From the NCBI GenBank assembly GCA_944354265.1, contig CALVPX010000004.1, positions 18,538 to 82,537 of the forward strand: a stretch of 64,000 nucleotides of DNA, read 5' to 3'. This document shows positions 4,628 to 48,893 of the stretch, in pieces. This DNA comes from an uncultured Clostridia bacterium (GTDB lineage Bacteria; Bacillota; Clostridia; Christensenellales; Borkfalkiaceae). Position 1 is the first letter of the stretch; the number at the start of each line of letters is the position of its first letter. A program made the translations under genes and the position numbers. Below the pieces are notes generated by a model, which did no database searches, had not been told where the DNA came from, and worked only from the letters and a program-made list of their open reading frames with translations.

Positions 4628-5833
4628 ATGGAAAAAATACGCATGACCACACCCATAGTTGAGATGGACGGTGACGAGATGACCCGCGTCCTTTGGCAGT
4701 GGATAAAAGAGCTGTTGATAGAGCCCTATGTAGATTTAAAGACTGAATATTACGACCTCGGCCTCCCCGAGCGCGATAAAACTGACGACTCCGTCACCGT
4801 CGCCTCAGCGGAGGCAACAAAAAAGTATGGCGTCGCCGTCAAGTGCGCAACAATAACGCCCAACGCGCAGAGGGTGGAGGAGTACCATTTAAAAAAGATG
4901 TGGAAGTCGCCAAACGGCACCATCCGCCGCATCTTGGACGGCACGGTATTCCGCGCGCCCATTCTCGTCAAGGGCATAACCCCCTACGTTCCCGGTTGGA
5001 CTAAGCCTATCGTCCTCGCCCGTCACGCCTACGGCGACATCTATAACTCCGTAGAGGCAAAGGTGGAGGGCGGCGGCACCGCCTACCTTGTGGTGTGCGA
5101 CAGGGAGGGCAAAGAGGTCTCCCGTCAGACCATTCACGCCTTTGAGGGCGACGGCATAGTTCAGGGCGTGCACAATTTAGATGAATCCATCTCCTCCTTT
5201 GCGCGCAGCTGTTTCAACTACGCCTTAGAAAATAAAATCCCCGTGTGGTTCGGCGCCAAGGACACCATTTCCAAGACCTACGACCACCGCTTCAAGGACA
5301 TCTTCAACGACATCTACGAAAGGGAATACGCCGCCAAGTTTGAAAAGGCGGGCATCTACTTCCTGTATACCCTCATCGACGACGTTGTCGCCCGCGTCAT
5401 GCGCAGCGAAGGCGGCATGCTTTGGGCGTGCAAGAATTACGACGGCGACGTCATGAGCGACATGGTCGCCACCGCATACGGCTCTCTCGGCATGATGAGC
5501 TCGGTTTTGGTCTCGCCCGACGGCAAGTACGAGTATGAAGCTGCCCACGGCACCGTCACCCGCCATTACTACAGGCATTTAAAGGGGGAGGAGACCTCCA
5601 CAAATTCCGTCGCCACAATATGGGCATGGACGGGCGCGCTTGCAAAGCGCGGCGAGCTCGACGGCAATCAGCCCTTGGTTGACTTCGCCAAGAAGCTTGA
5701 AAGGGCTACAATCGATACGATCGAATCGGGCTACATGACGGGCGACCTCATTCCCATGTTCCGCCGCGAGGGAATTCAGCCCCACAAGCTCAACTCCCGT
5801 CAGTTCCTCGAAAAAATCGCCGAAAAACTGTAA
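4628..5833 (+). CDS. icd: NADP-dependent isocitrate dehydrogenase
   Basis: About 401 residues of the eukaryotic-like (subfamily II) homodimeric NADP-IDH. Motifs include [11 protein letters not shown] for substrate binding, [16 protein letters not shown]-type cofactor region written here as [15 protein letters not shown], and the C-terminal [15 protein letters not shown]. It converts isocitrate to 2-oxoglutarate and provides NADPH and glutamate precursor. Two ATGs are possible; 4628 is chosen over 4622 because AGGAG (4617-4621) directly abuts the first and is 6 bases from the second. No citrate synthase or aconitase gene lies nearby. Confidence 0.95.
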
Positions 5834-45081: not shown

Positions 45082-45110
45082 TTGACAACAGCGTAAATAA
45101 ATGTTAGAAT
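45082..45110 (+). promoter_or_regulatory. Promoter of the riboswitch-pflA-thioredoxin unit
   Basis: TTGACA (45082-45087), 17-base spacer, TAGAAT (45105-45110). The predicted start near 45117 is just before the aptamer. Confidence 0.75.
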
Positions 45111-45129
45111 ACGAATACATCAATAAACT

Positions 45130-45206
45130 GATCGCGCAACTGACGATTTTTGCGGATGAACCGCGGGGTAGCGCGAATTGATTGAAATGTCGTTCGTCTG
45201 GGCAAA
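45130..45206 (+). promoter_or_regulatory. ZTP riboswitch (pfl motif) upstream of pflA
   Basis: Matches the pfl-motif consensus: P1 TCGCGC (45132-45137) with GCGCGA (45171-45176), the AACTGACG internal segment (45138-45145), P2 GCGG-atgaa-CCGC followed by GGGG (45152-45168), and the downstream CGTCTGGGCA (45195-45204) that makes the pseudoknot. It senses ZTP/ZMP, which accumulate when 10-formyl-THF is low. The pseudoknot strand GGGCA also forms the 5' arm of the terminator, so ligand binding should favour read-through into pflA. Confidence 0.88.
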
Positions 45207-45239
45207 TTTATCATCACAGGGTAAATGTTGCCCTTTTTT
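45200..45239 (+). terminator. Riboswitch expression-platform terminator
   Basis: GGGCAA + ATTTA (45200-45210) pairs with TAAAT + TTGCCC (45222-45233, one bulged G), then six T. The 5' arm overlaps the riboswitch pseudoknot. Confidence 0.85.
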
Positions 45240-45252
45240 ATGTGGAGGTTGC

Positions 45253-45972
45253 ATGACGGGTAGAATTCATTCCTTTGAATCGTTCGGCACGGTCGACGGC
45301 CCCGGTATTCGCTTTGTCGTATTTCTTCAGGGCTGCCCTATGCGCTGCCTTTATTGCCACAATCCCGATACATGGGTAACGGGCGGCGGAACAGAATATT
45401 CGGCGGAGGAGGTCGCTGCGCGCGCGCTTAAATATAAAAATTATTTTGCAGGGGGCGGCGGTGTCACCGTGTCGGGCGGCGAGCCAATGTTGCAGCCGCA
45501 GTTTGTTACCCAATTTTTTACCATCGTAAAAAATGCGGGCGTGAGCACCGCGCTCGATACCTCGGGCGTAATGTTCAACGAGGCCGATCCGCACGCTTAT
45601 GACGGGTTGCTCGCCGTCACCGACCTCGTGCTTTTGGACATCAAGCATATAGACGACTATCAGCATCAAAGGCTGACGGGTCACTCCAACAAAAACATTC
45701 TTGCCTTTGCCCGCTATCTTTCGGATATGGACAAGCCCGTTTGGATCCGCCATGTGCTCGTTCCCGGCATCACCGACGACGACAATTATCTGCACGAGCT
45801 CAAAAATTTTATCTCCACGCTTAAAAATGTGCAAAAGGTGGAGGTTCTGCCCTATCACTCCATGGGCGAGGTCAAGTACAATAAACTAGGCATGGATTAT
45901 CCCCTCCATGGCACAAAGCCCCCTTCGCCCGAGAGAATAAAAAACGCAAAGGAAATTTTAAAGATTCAATGA
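45253..45972 (+). CDS. pflA: Pyruvate formate-lyase activating enzyme
   Basis: 239 residues, radical-SAM glycyl-radical activase. The cluster motif is GCPMRCLYCHNPDTW (Cys28, Cys32, Cys35), preceded by SFGTVDGPGIRFVVFLQG and followed by VTVSGGEPMLQ. It abstracts the glycyl hydrogen of PFL using SAM. ATG 45253 has GGAGG 4 bases upstream; a longer frame from 45178 would run through the riboswitch terminator and is rejected. It overlaps the thioredoxin gene by ATGA. Confidence 0.95.
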   Translation: MTGRIHSFESFGTVDGPGIRFVVFLQGCPMRCLYCHNPDTWVTGGGTEYSAEEVAARALKYKNYFAGGGGVTVSGGEPMLQPQFVTQFFTIVKNAGVSTALDTSGVMFNEADPHAYDGLLAVTDLVLLDIKHIDDYQHQRLTGHSNKNILAFARYLSDMDKPVWIRHVLVPGITDDDNYLHELKNFISTLKNVQKVEVLPYHSMGEVKYNKLGMDYPLHGTKPPSPERIKNAKEILKIQ

Positions 45973-46256
45973 AAGATTTAAAACTCATCGAAATAAGCGG
46001 CGACTCATGCGCGGGTTGTCACGCATTGCTCCCCAATGTAAATGCCGTCGCCGCACAGAATAATCTGAAGGTGGAGCGCATAGATATTGAGACCCACCCC
46101 GAAGTCATAGAAAAATACGGCATAGACCGCATACCTTCGGTAATCATAGCCGACGGCGATAATATTATTGCTAAGTGCTCAGGTTATCAGCCCGAAGAAA
46201 TTTTATCTGTTTGGGTAGAGGCAAAACTTGAAGAATATAACGGCGGCCGCAGTTAA
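45969..46256 (+). CDS. Thioredoxin-family protein
   Basis: 95 residues with the active site GDSCAGCHAL (Cys14-Ala-Gly-Cys17) and the cis-Pro segment RIPSVII. The lead-in and C-terminal helix fit a minimal thioredoxin fold. It overlaps pflA, so it is in the riboswitch-controlled unit. It could reduce disulfides in PFL or PflA or another local partner; this is inference. Confidence 0.83.
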   Translation: MKDLKLIEISGDSCAGCHALLPNVNAVAAQNNLKVERIDIETHPEVIEKYGIDRIPSVIIADGDNIIAKCSGYQPEEILSVWVEAKLEEYNGGRS

Positions 46257-46312: not shown

Positions 46313-46341
46313 TTGACATTGCAACTTATTTGTATTATTCT
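46313..46341 (+). promoter_or_regulatory. Independent promoter of the PFL core gene
   Basis: TTGACA (46313-46318), 17-base spacer, TATTCT (46336-46341). A small palindrome TAAGATTAAATCTTA lies in the leader. Confidence 0.65.
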
Positions 46342-46383: not shown

Positions 46384-48414
46384 ATGACTTACAAAGCATG
46401 GGAAGGATTTGTTCCCGGAAAATGGAGCGACGACGAAGTTAACGTCCGCGACTTTATTCAGCGCAACTATACCCCTTACGAAGGTGACGACAGTTTTTTG
46501 GAGGGCCCCACCGAGGCCACACAAAAGTTGTGGAACGAAATTTTGGATCTCTCCGCAAAGGAGCGCGCCGCAGGCGGCGTACTCAAGGCGGATACTAAAA
46601 TTGTATCGACGCTCACAAGCCATAAGGCGGGCTATATAGATAAGGATCTTGAAAAAATTGTCGGCCTTCAGACGGACGAGCCCTTCAAGCGCGCATTGCA
46701 GCCCTTCGGCGGCATAAAGATGGCCGAACAGGCGCTCAATATGTACGGCTATGAAATCGATCCTCAGGTCAAGGAGATATTCACAAAATACCGCAAGACG
46801 CATAACGACGGCGTTTATGACGCGTACACACCCGAAATGCGCCGCGCCCGCACTGCACACATTCTTACAGGCCTGCCCGACACTTACGGCAGGGGCAGAA
46901 TAGTTGGCGACTACCGCCGCGTTGCCCTCTACGGCATCGACTATCTTATCGCGCAGAAGCAGAAGGATAAGCTCAACATGGACGGGGACATGACCCCCGA
47001 TAAGATTCGCGACCGCGAGGAACTGTCCGAGCAGATCAAGGCCCTTAACGACCTTAAAACCATGGCCGCCGAATACGGCATGGATATCTCCCGCCCCGCA
47101 GAGACCGCACAGGAGGCCATTCAGTGGCTCTACTTCGGCTACCTTGGTGCAATCAAGGATCAGAACGGCGCCGCCATGTCGATAGGCAGAAATTCCACCT
47201 TCCTCGATATCTATATCGAGCGCGACATAAAGCGCGGCATACTCACCGAAAAACAGGCTCAGGAACTCATAGATCAGTTCGTCATGAAATTGCGCATAGT
47301 CAAGTTCATGAGAATTAAGGAGTACAACGAGCTGTTCTCAGGCGACCCCACATGGGTAACCGAATCGATAGGCGGCATGGGAGTGGACGGCAGAACACTC
47401 GTTACAAAGTCCTCCTTCCGTATACTGCACACGCTTTCAAATCTCGGTCCCGCTCCCGAACCTAACCTTACCGTTCTGTGGTCAAAAAATCTGCCTTTGG
47501 GCTTCAAGAGATTTTGCGCAAAGACCTCTATTGCAACTTCGGCAATACAGTATGAAAGCGACGACCTCATGCGTCCCGAAATGGGCGACGACTACTGCAT
47601 CGCCTGCTGCGTAAGCTGCATGCGCGTCGGCAAGGACATGCAGTTCTTCGGCGCAAGGGCAAATCTTGCAAAGTGCCTTCTCTACGCCATCAACGGCGGT
47701 AAGGATGAACTTACCAAGGACAAAAAGACAGGTAAGGCATTACAGGTTTCGCCCATGTATGCCCCCGTCCTCGGCGACGGTCCCCTCGATTATAATGAGG
47801 TAATACAGAAGTACGAGCAGATGATGGATTGGCTTGCCGGCCTCTACGTCAATACGCTCAACCTCATTCACTATATGCACGACAAGTACTCCTACGAAGC
47901 TTTGGAGATGGCGCTGCACGATACTCAGGTAAGGCGCTTCTTCGCAACGGGCATTGCAGGGCTTTCGTGCGCGGCGGACTCTCTTTCGGCAATCAAGTAC
48001 GCAAAGGTTTATCCCATCCGCGATGAAGAGGGGCTCGTGACCGACTTCAGAATCGAAGGCGACTATCCCAAGTACGGCAACAACGACGACAGGGTAGATC
48101 AGATTGCTGTTTGGCTCGTAAAGACATTTATGAACAAGATTAAGAGCCATTACACCTATCGTCAGAGCGTTCCCACCATGTCCATCCTCACCATCACATC
48201 CAATGTGGTGTATGGCAAGAAGACGGGCAACACGCCCGACGGCAGAAGGGCGGGACAGCCCTTGGCTCCCGGCGCAAACCCCATGCACGGCAGGGATTCA
48301 AGCGGTGCTTTGGCCTCCCTTGAATCGGTTGCAAAACTTCCCTACGAGTACTCGCGCGACGGTATTTCGAATACGTTCTCGGTAACGCCCGCTTCGCTCG
48401 GTAAGGATGATTGA
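46384..48414 (+). CDS. pflB: Pyruvate formate-lyase catalytic core lacking the glycyl-radical domain
   Basis: 676 residues; usual PFL has about 740-760. It aligns with PFL throughout: [47 protein letters not shown], the catalytic Cys pair IACCVS (Cys408-Cys409), [20 protein letters not shown] and [16 protein letters not shown]. It stops at [12 protein letters not shown], exactly where the linker to the glycyl domain begins in single-chain PFLs. The missing domain is the next gene. It should cleave pyruvate plus CoA to acetyl-CoA and formate only together with that small protein. RBS GAGGTAA. Confidence 0.93.
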
Positions 48415-48430
48415 TTATAAAAATTATACG

Positions 48431-48446
48431 GTAAGGTAATCCTTAC
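48431..48446 (+). other. Small hairpin in the pflB intercistronic gap
   Basis: GTAAGG-TAAT-CCTTAC followed by A-rich sequence, between the core and glycyl-domain genes. It is not a terminator (no T tract); it may affect mRNA processing or the ratio of the two subunits. Confidence 0.5.
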
Positions 48447-48474
48447 AAAAAAATATTATAAGAGGTGAATTACT

Positions 48475-48705
48475 ATGTCAAGAGTAGATAATCTTGTTAA
48501 TATGCTCGATGCGTATGTCGCCGACGGCGGATACCATCTCAATGTAAACGTCTTTGACAGGGCAACTCTTTTGGATGCTCAGGCTCATCCCGAAAAGTAT
48601 CCCCAACTTACTGTCAGGGTTTCGGGCTATGCCGTCAACTTCAACAAGCTCACAAAAGAACAGCAGGACGACGTAATTTCAAGAACAATTCACGAATCAT
48701 TCTGA
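48475..48705 (+). CDS. Separate glycyl-radical domain of pyruvate formate-lyase
   Basis: 76 residues. [20 protein letters not shown], the [20 protein letters not shown] segment and [20 protein letters not shown] reproduce the PFL C terminus; Gly51 in RVSGYAV is the radical site, and the protein ends RTIHESF. It starts 60 bases after the core stop with a strong RBS AGAGGTGA (48461-48468). It resembles E. coli GrcA/YfiD, a spare-part protein, but here the neighbouring PFL core has no glycyl domain of its own, so this protein is predicted to be an essential subunit. A terminator follows. Confidence 0.93.
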
Positions 48706-48716
48706 TTTTACGCCTT

Positions 48717-48752
48717 AAATAGCGGCCGCAGTTTTTCTGCGGCCGCTATTTT
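48717..48752 (+). terminator. Terminator after the glycyl-domain gene
   Basis: AAATAGCGGCCGCA / TGCGGCCGCTATTTT stem with a 7-base loop and terminal T run. Confidence 0.9.
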
Positions 48753-48893
48753 CTATGTCGGTAAATGTCACGGTCTGCATATTGATGTCCGAATTTACAT
48801 TTTTTCAAACTGCGAAGTTATTTTCAGTGCATGCGCATATGCCGCAAAGCGACAATATATTGCCATGTTTGTAGAAAATTTTGCACTTTTTAA

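Follow-up and report, generated by a model that had tools for sequence, protein, structure and literature searches.

The window, a stretch of 64,000 nucleotides, carries an operon for pyruvate formate-lyase (PFL), in which a ZTP riboswitch is followed by pflA, a thioredoxin-like gene, the PFL core gene, and the gene for a radical subunit, in this order. The features of the locus are:

45082..45110, + strand: promoter-like site 5' of the riboswitch (TTGACA-17-TAGAAT), from a consensus scan only, 11/12
45126..45210, + strand: ZMP/ZTP riboswitch aptamer (pfl RNA motif, RF01750) in the pflA leader, 59.3 bits, gathering score 39
45218..45239, + strand: terminator-like hairpin with a T-run 3' of the riboswitch, likely the expression platform, a role assigned by inference
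45253..45972, + strand: pflA, the PFL-activating radical-SAM enzyme, 239 aa from ATG at 45253; TIGR02493 322.6 bits, cut-off 231.75
45969..46256, + strand: thioredoxin-like gene, 95 aa, CAGC, its start overlapping the pflA stop codon; PF13192 and PF00085 above cut-off; subfamily profile A2
46313..46341, + strand: promoter-like site 5' of the core gene (TTGACA-17-TATTCT), from a consensus scan only, 10/12
46384..48414, + strand: PFL core subunit, 676 aa, C408/C409, ending in LGKDD-TGA; TIGR01255 1099.4 bits, model positions 1-663 of 744; PF02901 709.6 bits
48415..48474, + strand: 60-nt spacer with the Shine–Dalgarno (SD) sequence GAGGTGA
48475..48705, + strand: glycyl radical subunit (GrcA3-like), 76 aa, Gly51; PF01228 positions 53-106; NF038360 153.5 bits, cut-off 158
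48717..48751, + strand: strong hairpin 3' of the small gene, possibly the transcript end, -28 kcal/mol, z -8.1

The hairpin at 48717..48751 is absent from the output of the terminator scan, which also contains no + strand terminator-like site in the 60-nt spacer. A stable RNA structure in the spacer was considered and rejected (z -0.8); Rfam matches at 48650-48760 are below the gathering scores and were taken as chance matches on the hairpin.

Comparison with the PFL models shows that they are divided between the two genes. The core ends at position 48 of Pfam Gly_radical and the small protein begins at position 53; in TIGR01255 the core takes positions 1-663 and the small protein 666-743, with no overlap and nearly no gap; and in the alignment with E. 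coli PFL the core corresponds to chain residues 9-678, and the small protein to 683-758. The core is assigned to TIGR01255 with a complete catalytic core (1099.4 bits, curated cut-off 994.2), while the glycyl domain, which in this family lies in the same chain, is encoded by the separate 76-aa gene, with an ATG at 48475 and the SD sequence GAGGTGA 6 nt 5' of it. The match of the small protein to the NF038360 (GrcA3) model spans 74 of 78 positions and reaches 153.5 bits, 4.5 bits below the cut-off of 158; this cut-off is exceeded by 5 of 61 near genomes and by 42 of the 47 GrcA3-bearing, mostly Lachnospiraceae genomes drawn from the best 80 loci.

The residues that we take to be the active site of PFL (E. 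coli numbering) are R176, F327, W333, C418, C419, F432, R435, and G734. By alignment mapping they correspond to R172, F318, W324, C408, C409, F422, and R425 of the core, and to G51 of the small protein, hence IACCVS (C408/C409), W324, F318, R425, and R172 are retained in the core, in agreement with conservation. In the 106 split loci that were parsed, the window locus included, each of the seven core active-site positions is occupied by a single residue wherever the sequence is present, and RVSGYAV is found in 106 of 106 small proteins, a universality that is partly due to selection, since the parser picked small proteins by a looser glycine-loop pattern. Strong purifying selection acts on both genes, with dN/dS ratios against eight near relatives of 0.037-0.069 in the core and 0.014-0.059 in the small gene. 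An earlier note on this DNA had claimed that the core stops at LGKDD before the linker, that the glycyl domain (RVSGYAV, Gly51) is encoded by a separate 76-residue gene, which begins 60 nt further on behind a strong ribosome-binding site, and that the expected motifs, IACCVS among them, are kept. The first claim is borne out by the Pfam and TIGR01255 models, both of which are cut at that point; the second agrees with the gene coordinates and the third with the E. coli PFL alignment and with conservation. By sequence, the core has the substrate site and the cysteine pair and is devoid of the last part of the fold, the one with the glycine loop, and the small protein contributes precisely this part.

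In the genus of the window organism, TIGR01255 is matched in 74 of 93 genomes: 49 have a split PFL (the window organism included), 23 have a single chain (one of them, G019, called from the profile-match table alone), and two are undeterminable, with only the N-terminal part of PFL assembled. No second full-length PFL was found in any of the split genus genomes. The gap between the two genes in the 49 split loci ranges from 14 to 391 nt, with 16, 16, and 17 loci in the three classes modulo 3; the small gene starts with ATG in all 49, and an SD sequence of at least five bases precedes it in 46. At the window locus one might suspect an error of sequencing or assembly, or a single chain that arises from readthrough or a frameshift, since the two genes share one frame across the spacer and a read-through chain can be composed. 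However, the core and the small gene occupy all three frame relations about equally often, which excludes readthrough; SD sequences are present in most loci and ATG in all; a like split is seen in the isolates Eisenbergiella tayi DSM 26961 and Lachnospiraceae bacterium 28-4; and the spacer residues have pLDDT below 50 in the structure model. The probability of this explanation is negligible. The earlier note had suggested collecting homologues with an adjacent glycyl gene, which proved plentiful (49 of the 74 PFL-bearing genus genomes, and the 106 parsed loci), and had regarded one-chain relatives as a sign of error. Such relatives do exist (23 of 74), but the split is not an error, because 49 of 74 genomes are split, in many assemblies and with variable gaps and frames. 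The natural two-gene arrangement of PFL is real, conserved, and common to many relatives.

The window assembly (1.75 Mb, 85.9% complete) contains one match to PF02901, the split core. Matches to PF01228 occur in one other place, NrdD of the class III ribonucleotide reductase, and a second PFL was thereby ruled out at this level of completeness; the whole-genome search for a full-length PFL that the earlier note had proposed likewise returned, in the 85.9% complete assembly, nothing besides the split pair. One might still suppose that the core is a decayed PFL, that another enzyme does its work, and that GrcA3 is merely a spare part. The small protein does resemble GrcA/YfiD (TIGR04365 95.1 bits, below the cut-off of 170), whose known role is the rescue of damaged PFL (PMC8683613). 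This supposition is very unlikely: no other PFL was found in the assembly (86% complete), the core has dN/dS of 0.037-0.069 with the tested catalytic positions fully conserved, and its TIGR01255 score exceeds the cut-off.

We conclude that the locus very probably encodes a pyruvate formate-lyase of two obligate subunits. The small subunit would dock into the core like the C-terminal domain of single-chain PFL, and PflA would install the radical on its Gly51; the radical would then move to C409/C408 of the core, where pyruvate and CoA would be converted to acetyl-CoA and formate. Oxygen cleavage at Gly51 would cost the 76-residue subunit only, and a fresh copy could dock. The read-through chain of the window pair was modelled with pLDDT 86.3 and pTM 0.89 (spacer residues 677-694 below 50) and fits E. 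coli PFL with 738 residues superposed at 1.8 A, although the model favours docking by construction, because the subunits are joined through the spacer and the underlying alignment took in 46 single-chain relatives. The modelling shows that the pair can complete the PFL fold; it bears on the joined chain, not on assembly from free chains. Assembly in trans is not automatic, because binding of YfiD to the E. coli core was too weak to measure and the core was poorly activated, with 32-fold less radical (PMC8683613); the natural break lies upstream of the one in that E. coli case, between E. coli residues 678 and 683. Splitting is also dispensable for this way of life, since 23 of 74 genus genomes keep one chain.

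At the level of the order, 395 genomes were sampled evenly; the PFL cut-off is exceeded in 135 of them, and at least 14 of these are split, a lower bound since only fetched loci were parsed; twelve of these belong to the window's family. The other two, G045 and G804 (loci L158 and L159), belong to other families, have the split cassette together with the thioredoxin-like gene, and lie inside the window clade of the core tree, which suggests horizontal transfer of the whole cassette. In a sample of 398 genomes of the phylum, the window and G282 have the only standalone copies above 150 bits among the matches listed; a short frame in G262, with 110 residues and 79 bits, gives a match that is weaker and of another kind. 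When named genomes were scanned with the G282 subunit, the best 80 loci were mostly titled Lachnospiraceae, including Eisenbergiella tayi DSM 26961 and Lachnospiraceae bacterium 28-4, and 48 of them parse as split pairs. The 49 Lachnospiraceae-type pairs have gaps of 25-982 nt (median 314), and most of their cores have an added tail such as VFAGDIELDLNK.

Two trees of the cores were built, the first leaving out loci with a core fragment shorter than 380 residues, the second from 88 chosen rows (76 of the window clade and 12 outgroup or Lachnospiraceae-type). In the second tree, one supported clade (100/97) unites all 60 split cores with 21 single-chain relatives. Six changes between split and single are needed on this tree, and five to six on bootstrap trees; four of the changes are forced by starred branches. 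With the tree rooted, the six changes are one fission and five re-fusions; if re-fusion is forbidden, ten fissions are needed. Parsimony places at the base of the window clade a split core (5 versus 7 changes) accompanied by the thioredoxin-like gene (4 versus 6). The single-chain relatives (23 of 74) are thus likely to be secondary re-fusions. Fission followed by re-fusion is likely rather than proven, because the backbone forks of the window clade are weak in the second tree, and because the single-chain loci L040 and L045, absent from that tree, had no settled place in the first, where they fell beside split clades; that most fused linkers are of ordinary length was also counted against the direction of re-fusion.

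The thioredoxin-like protein has the features of the thioredoxin-like fold (PF13192 and PF00085, 38.6 and 36.4 bits, both above cut-offs). In 15 proteins of its subfamily C14, C17, and P56 are invariant, with a CxxC and a GYQPEEI-like motif; the conserved proline is presumably the cis-Pro of thioredoxins. Within the window clade, 45 of the 51 split loci that could be assessed have the gene between pflA and the core, versus 0 of 21 assessable single-chain loci, with seven split and four single-chain loci set aside as unjudgeable. A profile built from the 15 proteins gives a two-peaked distribution in the genus: 43 genomes score at least 96 bits, and all other matches are below 46. The 43 strong matches fall in 41 of 49 split and two undeterminable genomes, and in none of the 23 single-chain genomes or the 19 genomes without PFL. 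In the order sample, 11 of 395 genomes exceed 100 bits, all of them split, and the next match has 59. The gene is thus strongly associated with the split state, but no significance is claimed, because independent events are few (three to five pairs in the independent-pairs test).

Whether the gene is merely a passenger, unrelated to the split, is in our estimate an even question. There are only three to five phylogenetically independent comparisons, no match was found near Lachnospiraceae-type pairs, and eight of 49 split genus genomes have no strong match. At L131, L135, L140, and L141 pflA stands close before the core with no thioredoxin-like gene between; in G023, G473, G504, and G507, which also give no match, the core is cut at the contig end. 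On the other side are the contrast of 41/49 split with 0/23 single-chain genus genomes, the 11 genomes of the order sample, all split, and the CxxC motif present in 44 of 45 extracted proteins. Split loci without the gene adjoin single-chain ones twice on the tree (L155 with L090; L140 and L141 with L077), a pattern that loss of the helper ahead of re-fusion would produce. If the association is functional, the thioredoxin-like protein may maintain the two active-site cysteines in the reduced state for as long as the site is open; this is the least certain step of the proposed mechanism, and we offer it with considerable doubt.

The leader of the window operon belongs to RF01750 (59.3 bits, gathering score 39). 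Among chosen relatives in the window clade, the ZTP riboswitch is seen in nine of 14 split and nine of ten single-chain loci; it therefore belongs to the operon, not to the split. Of the loci tested, it was not found at L142, L158, L068, L153, L155, and L159, nor at any of the eight Lachnospiraceae-type and four viral loci. ZTP is a signal that 10-formyl-tetrahydrofolate is running low. A riboswitch for it suggests that expression of the operon rises during such a shortage, and that the formate would then feed one-carbon metabolism.

The earlier note had further proposed that the radical subunit is exchangeable. For the window organism itself, with one core and one radical subunit, the claim gains nothing; elsewhere, multi-copy subunits and coreless viral copies make exchange likely. 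All 47 GrcA3-bearing genomes, mostly titled Lachnospiraceae, have at least one standalone GrcA3, 23 have two and one has three; one PFL core exceeds the cut-off in 43 of them, and four contain core fragments only. Two or three radical subunits thus accompany at most one core in 24 of 47 genomes, a sample biased to split genomes because these genomes (48 of the best 80 loci) were found as encoding GrcA3. Other glycyl matches in the 47 genomes reach at most 86 bits, compared with about 100-143 for the domains of single-chain PFL among the matches listed for the phylum sample. In seven of 24 assessable loci without a parsed core (L180, L181, L182, L188, L195, L216, and L228), the GrcA3 gene lies shortly 3' of a Crp/Fnr-type regulator gene, and groL is nearby in four; some of the seven are near-identical, and the class includes loci, e.g., L173, with an upstream core missed by the parser. 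At L193 a Clostridiales-1 RNA (5245-5408) directly follows the GrcA3 gene.

Radical-subunit matches were also found in 16 viral records. L277 and L278 look like large enterobacterial phages; of the other 14 contigs, eleven carry GrcA3 (72-89% identical) with no core in the record, which is weak evidence where the record is a fragment (L271 ends just past the gene), and three carry the core too. The contigs are viral by IMG/VR classing, and the terminase model matched seven of the 16 records, some weakly, and L263 not at all. The contigs with GrcA3-like genes (L263-L276) are 4-333 kb long. L265 and L274 are identical at the core, and L267 and L268 are near-identical. In L263 core and GrcA3 are 17 nt apart, and the subunit is 96% identical to that of G747 from the window's family; downstream of this full split PFL lie THF and SAM riboswitches. 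The subunit is a neighbour of NrdD in both L269 and L270, and of NrdG as well in L269 (PHROGs). The viral core of L265/L274 (3237-5258) contains TGA in frame three times, at positions 14, 50, and 323; these coincide with, or lie one place from, W14, W50, and W324 of the window core, which suggests that TGA is read as Trp in the virus or its host. GrcA-like genes in enterobacterial phages have long been known, and GrcA-like matches occur in 1535 of 50,697 INPHARED records; Y06I of phage T4 is a GrcA-like protein (PMC8683613).

An opposite reading takes the split for an accident of drift without benefit, with no exchange in the cell and two chains that just co-fold. The single core and single subunit of the window organism are in line with it, as are the 23 single-chain genus genomes and the five re-fusions favoured by parsimony, by which the split is readily lost. 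However, 24 of 47 other genomes have two or three subunits and never more than one core, and there are coreless viral copies; both observations suggest a use for supply in trans there, and we regard drift alone as unlikely. Exchange of the radical subunit is likely on these comparative grounds. In its widest form, which we put forward only tentatively, the PFL of these anaerobes would be an open, exchangeable system: a long-lived core would be supplied in trans with radical subunits encoded in its own operon, in unlinked second genes (some of which neighbour Crp/Fnr-type regulators), or by infecting phages; a thioredoxin-like protein dedicated to this system, and translated together with the activase, would keep the exposed cysteine pair ready for each incoming subunit; and re-fused lineages would do without the helper.

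PFL is among the main sources of acetyl-CoA and formate for many gut anaerobes; its chief vulnerability is that oxygen cleaves it at the radical glycine. If the two-subunit reading is true, a separate, cheap radical piece (76 of 752 residues) would make the repair trick of E. coli the normal state of the enzyme. This opens testable questions, namely subunit exchange in life, access of PflA to the glycine on the free domain, and the reason for re-fusion. Large viral contigs with the radical subunit, two of them with it beside an anaerobic ribonucleotide reductase gene, suggest viral use. In annotation, PFL "lacking" the glycyl domain in Lachnospiraceae and in the window's family should not be labelled broken.

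The earlier note made no mention of the thioredoxin-like gene, the riboswitch, the single-chain sister loci, or the viral copies, most of which take tools to find, and it knew of no described system in which the main PFL is without its glycyl domain. Parts of such a system had already been met, in the NCBIfam GrcA3 model and in PDB 38la_A, and the note overrated the isolation from known families; as to the whole, no description of a natural split PFL was found among the titles and abstract beginnings listed for open-access literature, the passages of PMC8683613, PMC12338860, PMC12288474, and PMC13252398 that were seen do not mention it, and a term search of PMC12590467 and PMC12358834 gave no passage on it. 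Nor was any text found, in the literature as far as it was covered, that names GrcA3 an obligate PFL subunit. NCBIfam NF038360, "autonomous glycyl radical cofactor GrcA3", describes the same small-protein family, and its name says cofactor. PDB 38la_A, a formate acetyltransferase chain of 687 residues known here from the chain sequence alone, is 74% identical to the window core, aligns with its residues 4-676, and likewise breaks off there, at LGKED, lacking the glycyl domain. No 38la chain is among the matches of the radical subunit, and 38lb_A is absent from the glycyl-domain matches even at E 10; both 38la and 38lb look recent, because the fold search, which covered PDB entries until April 2026, lists neither.

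GrcA/YfiD of E. coli and Y06I of phage T4 are, like the small protein judged by its sequence, standalone glycyl domains; they are activated by PFL-AE and act in trans (PMC8683613). The disordered N-terminus of YfiD, 60 residues long, aids binding (PMC8683613), whereas the window small protein (76 aa) has only about 15 residues before the part that aligns to YfiD residues 67-126 (6owr), and no long N-terminal half. In E. coli the glycyl domain remains part of the main PFL, which YfiD rescues once it has been cleaved, while in the window organism no full-length PFL was found (assembly 86% complete). Single-chain PflB of E. coli (PDB 1h16/1mzo/2pfl) shares with the window pair the core fold, the Cys pair, the substrate residues, the RVSGYAV loop, and the adjacent pflA, at about 62-63% identity in structural alignments; the difference is that its glycyl domain lies in the chain, and that of the window is a separate gene, with the break between E. 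coli residues 678 and 683.
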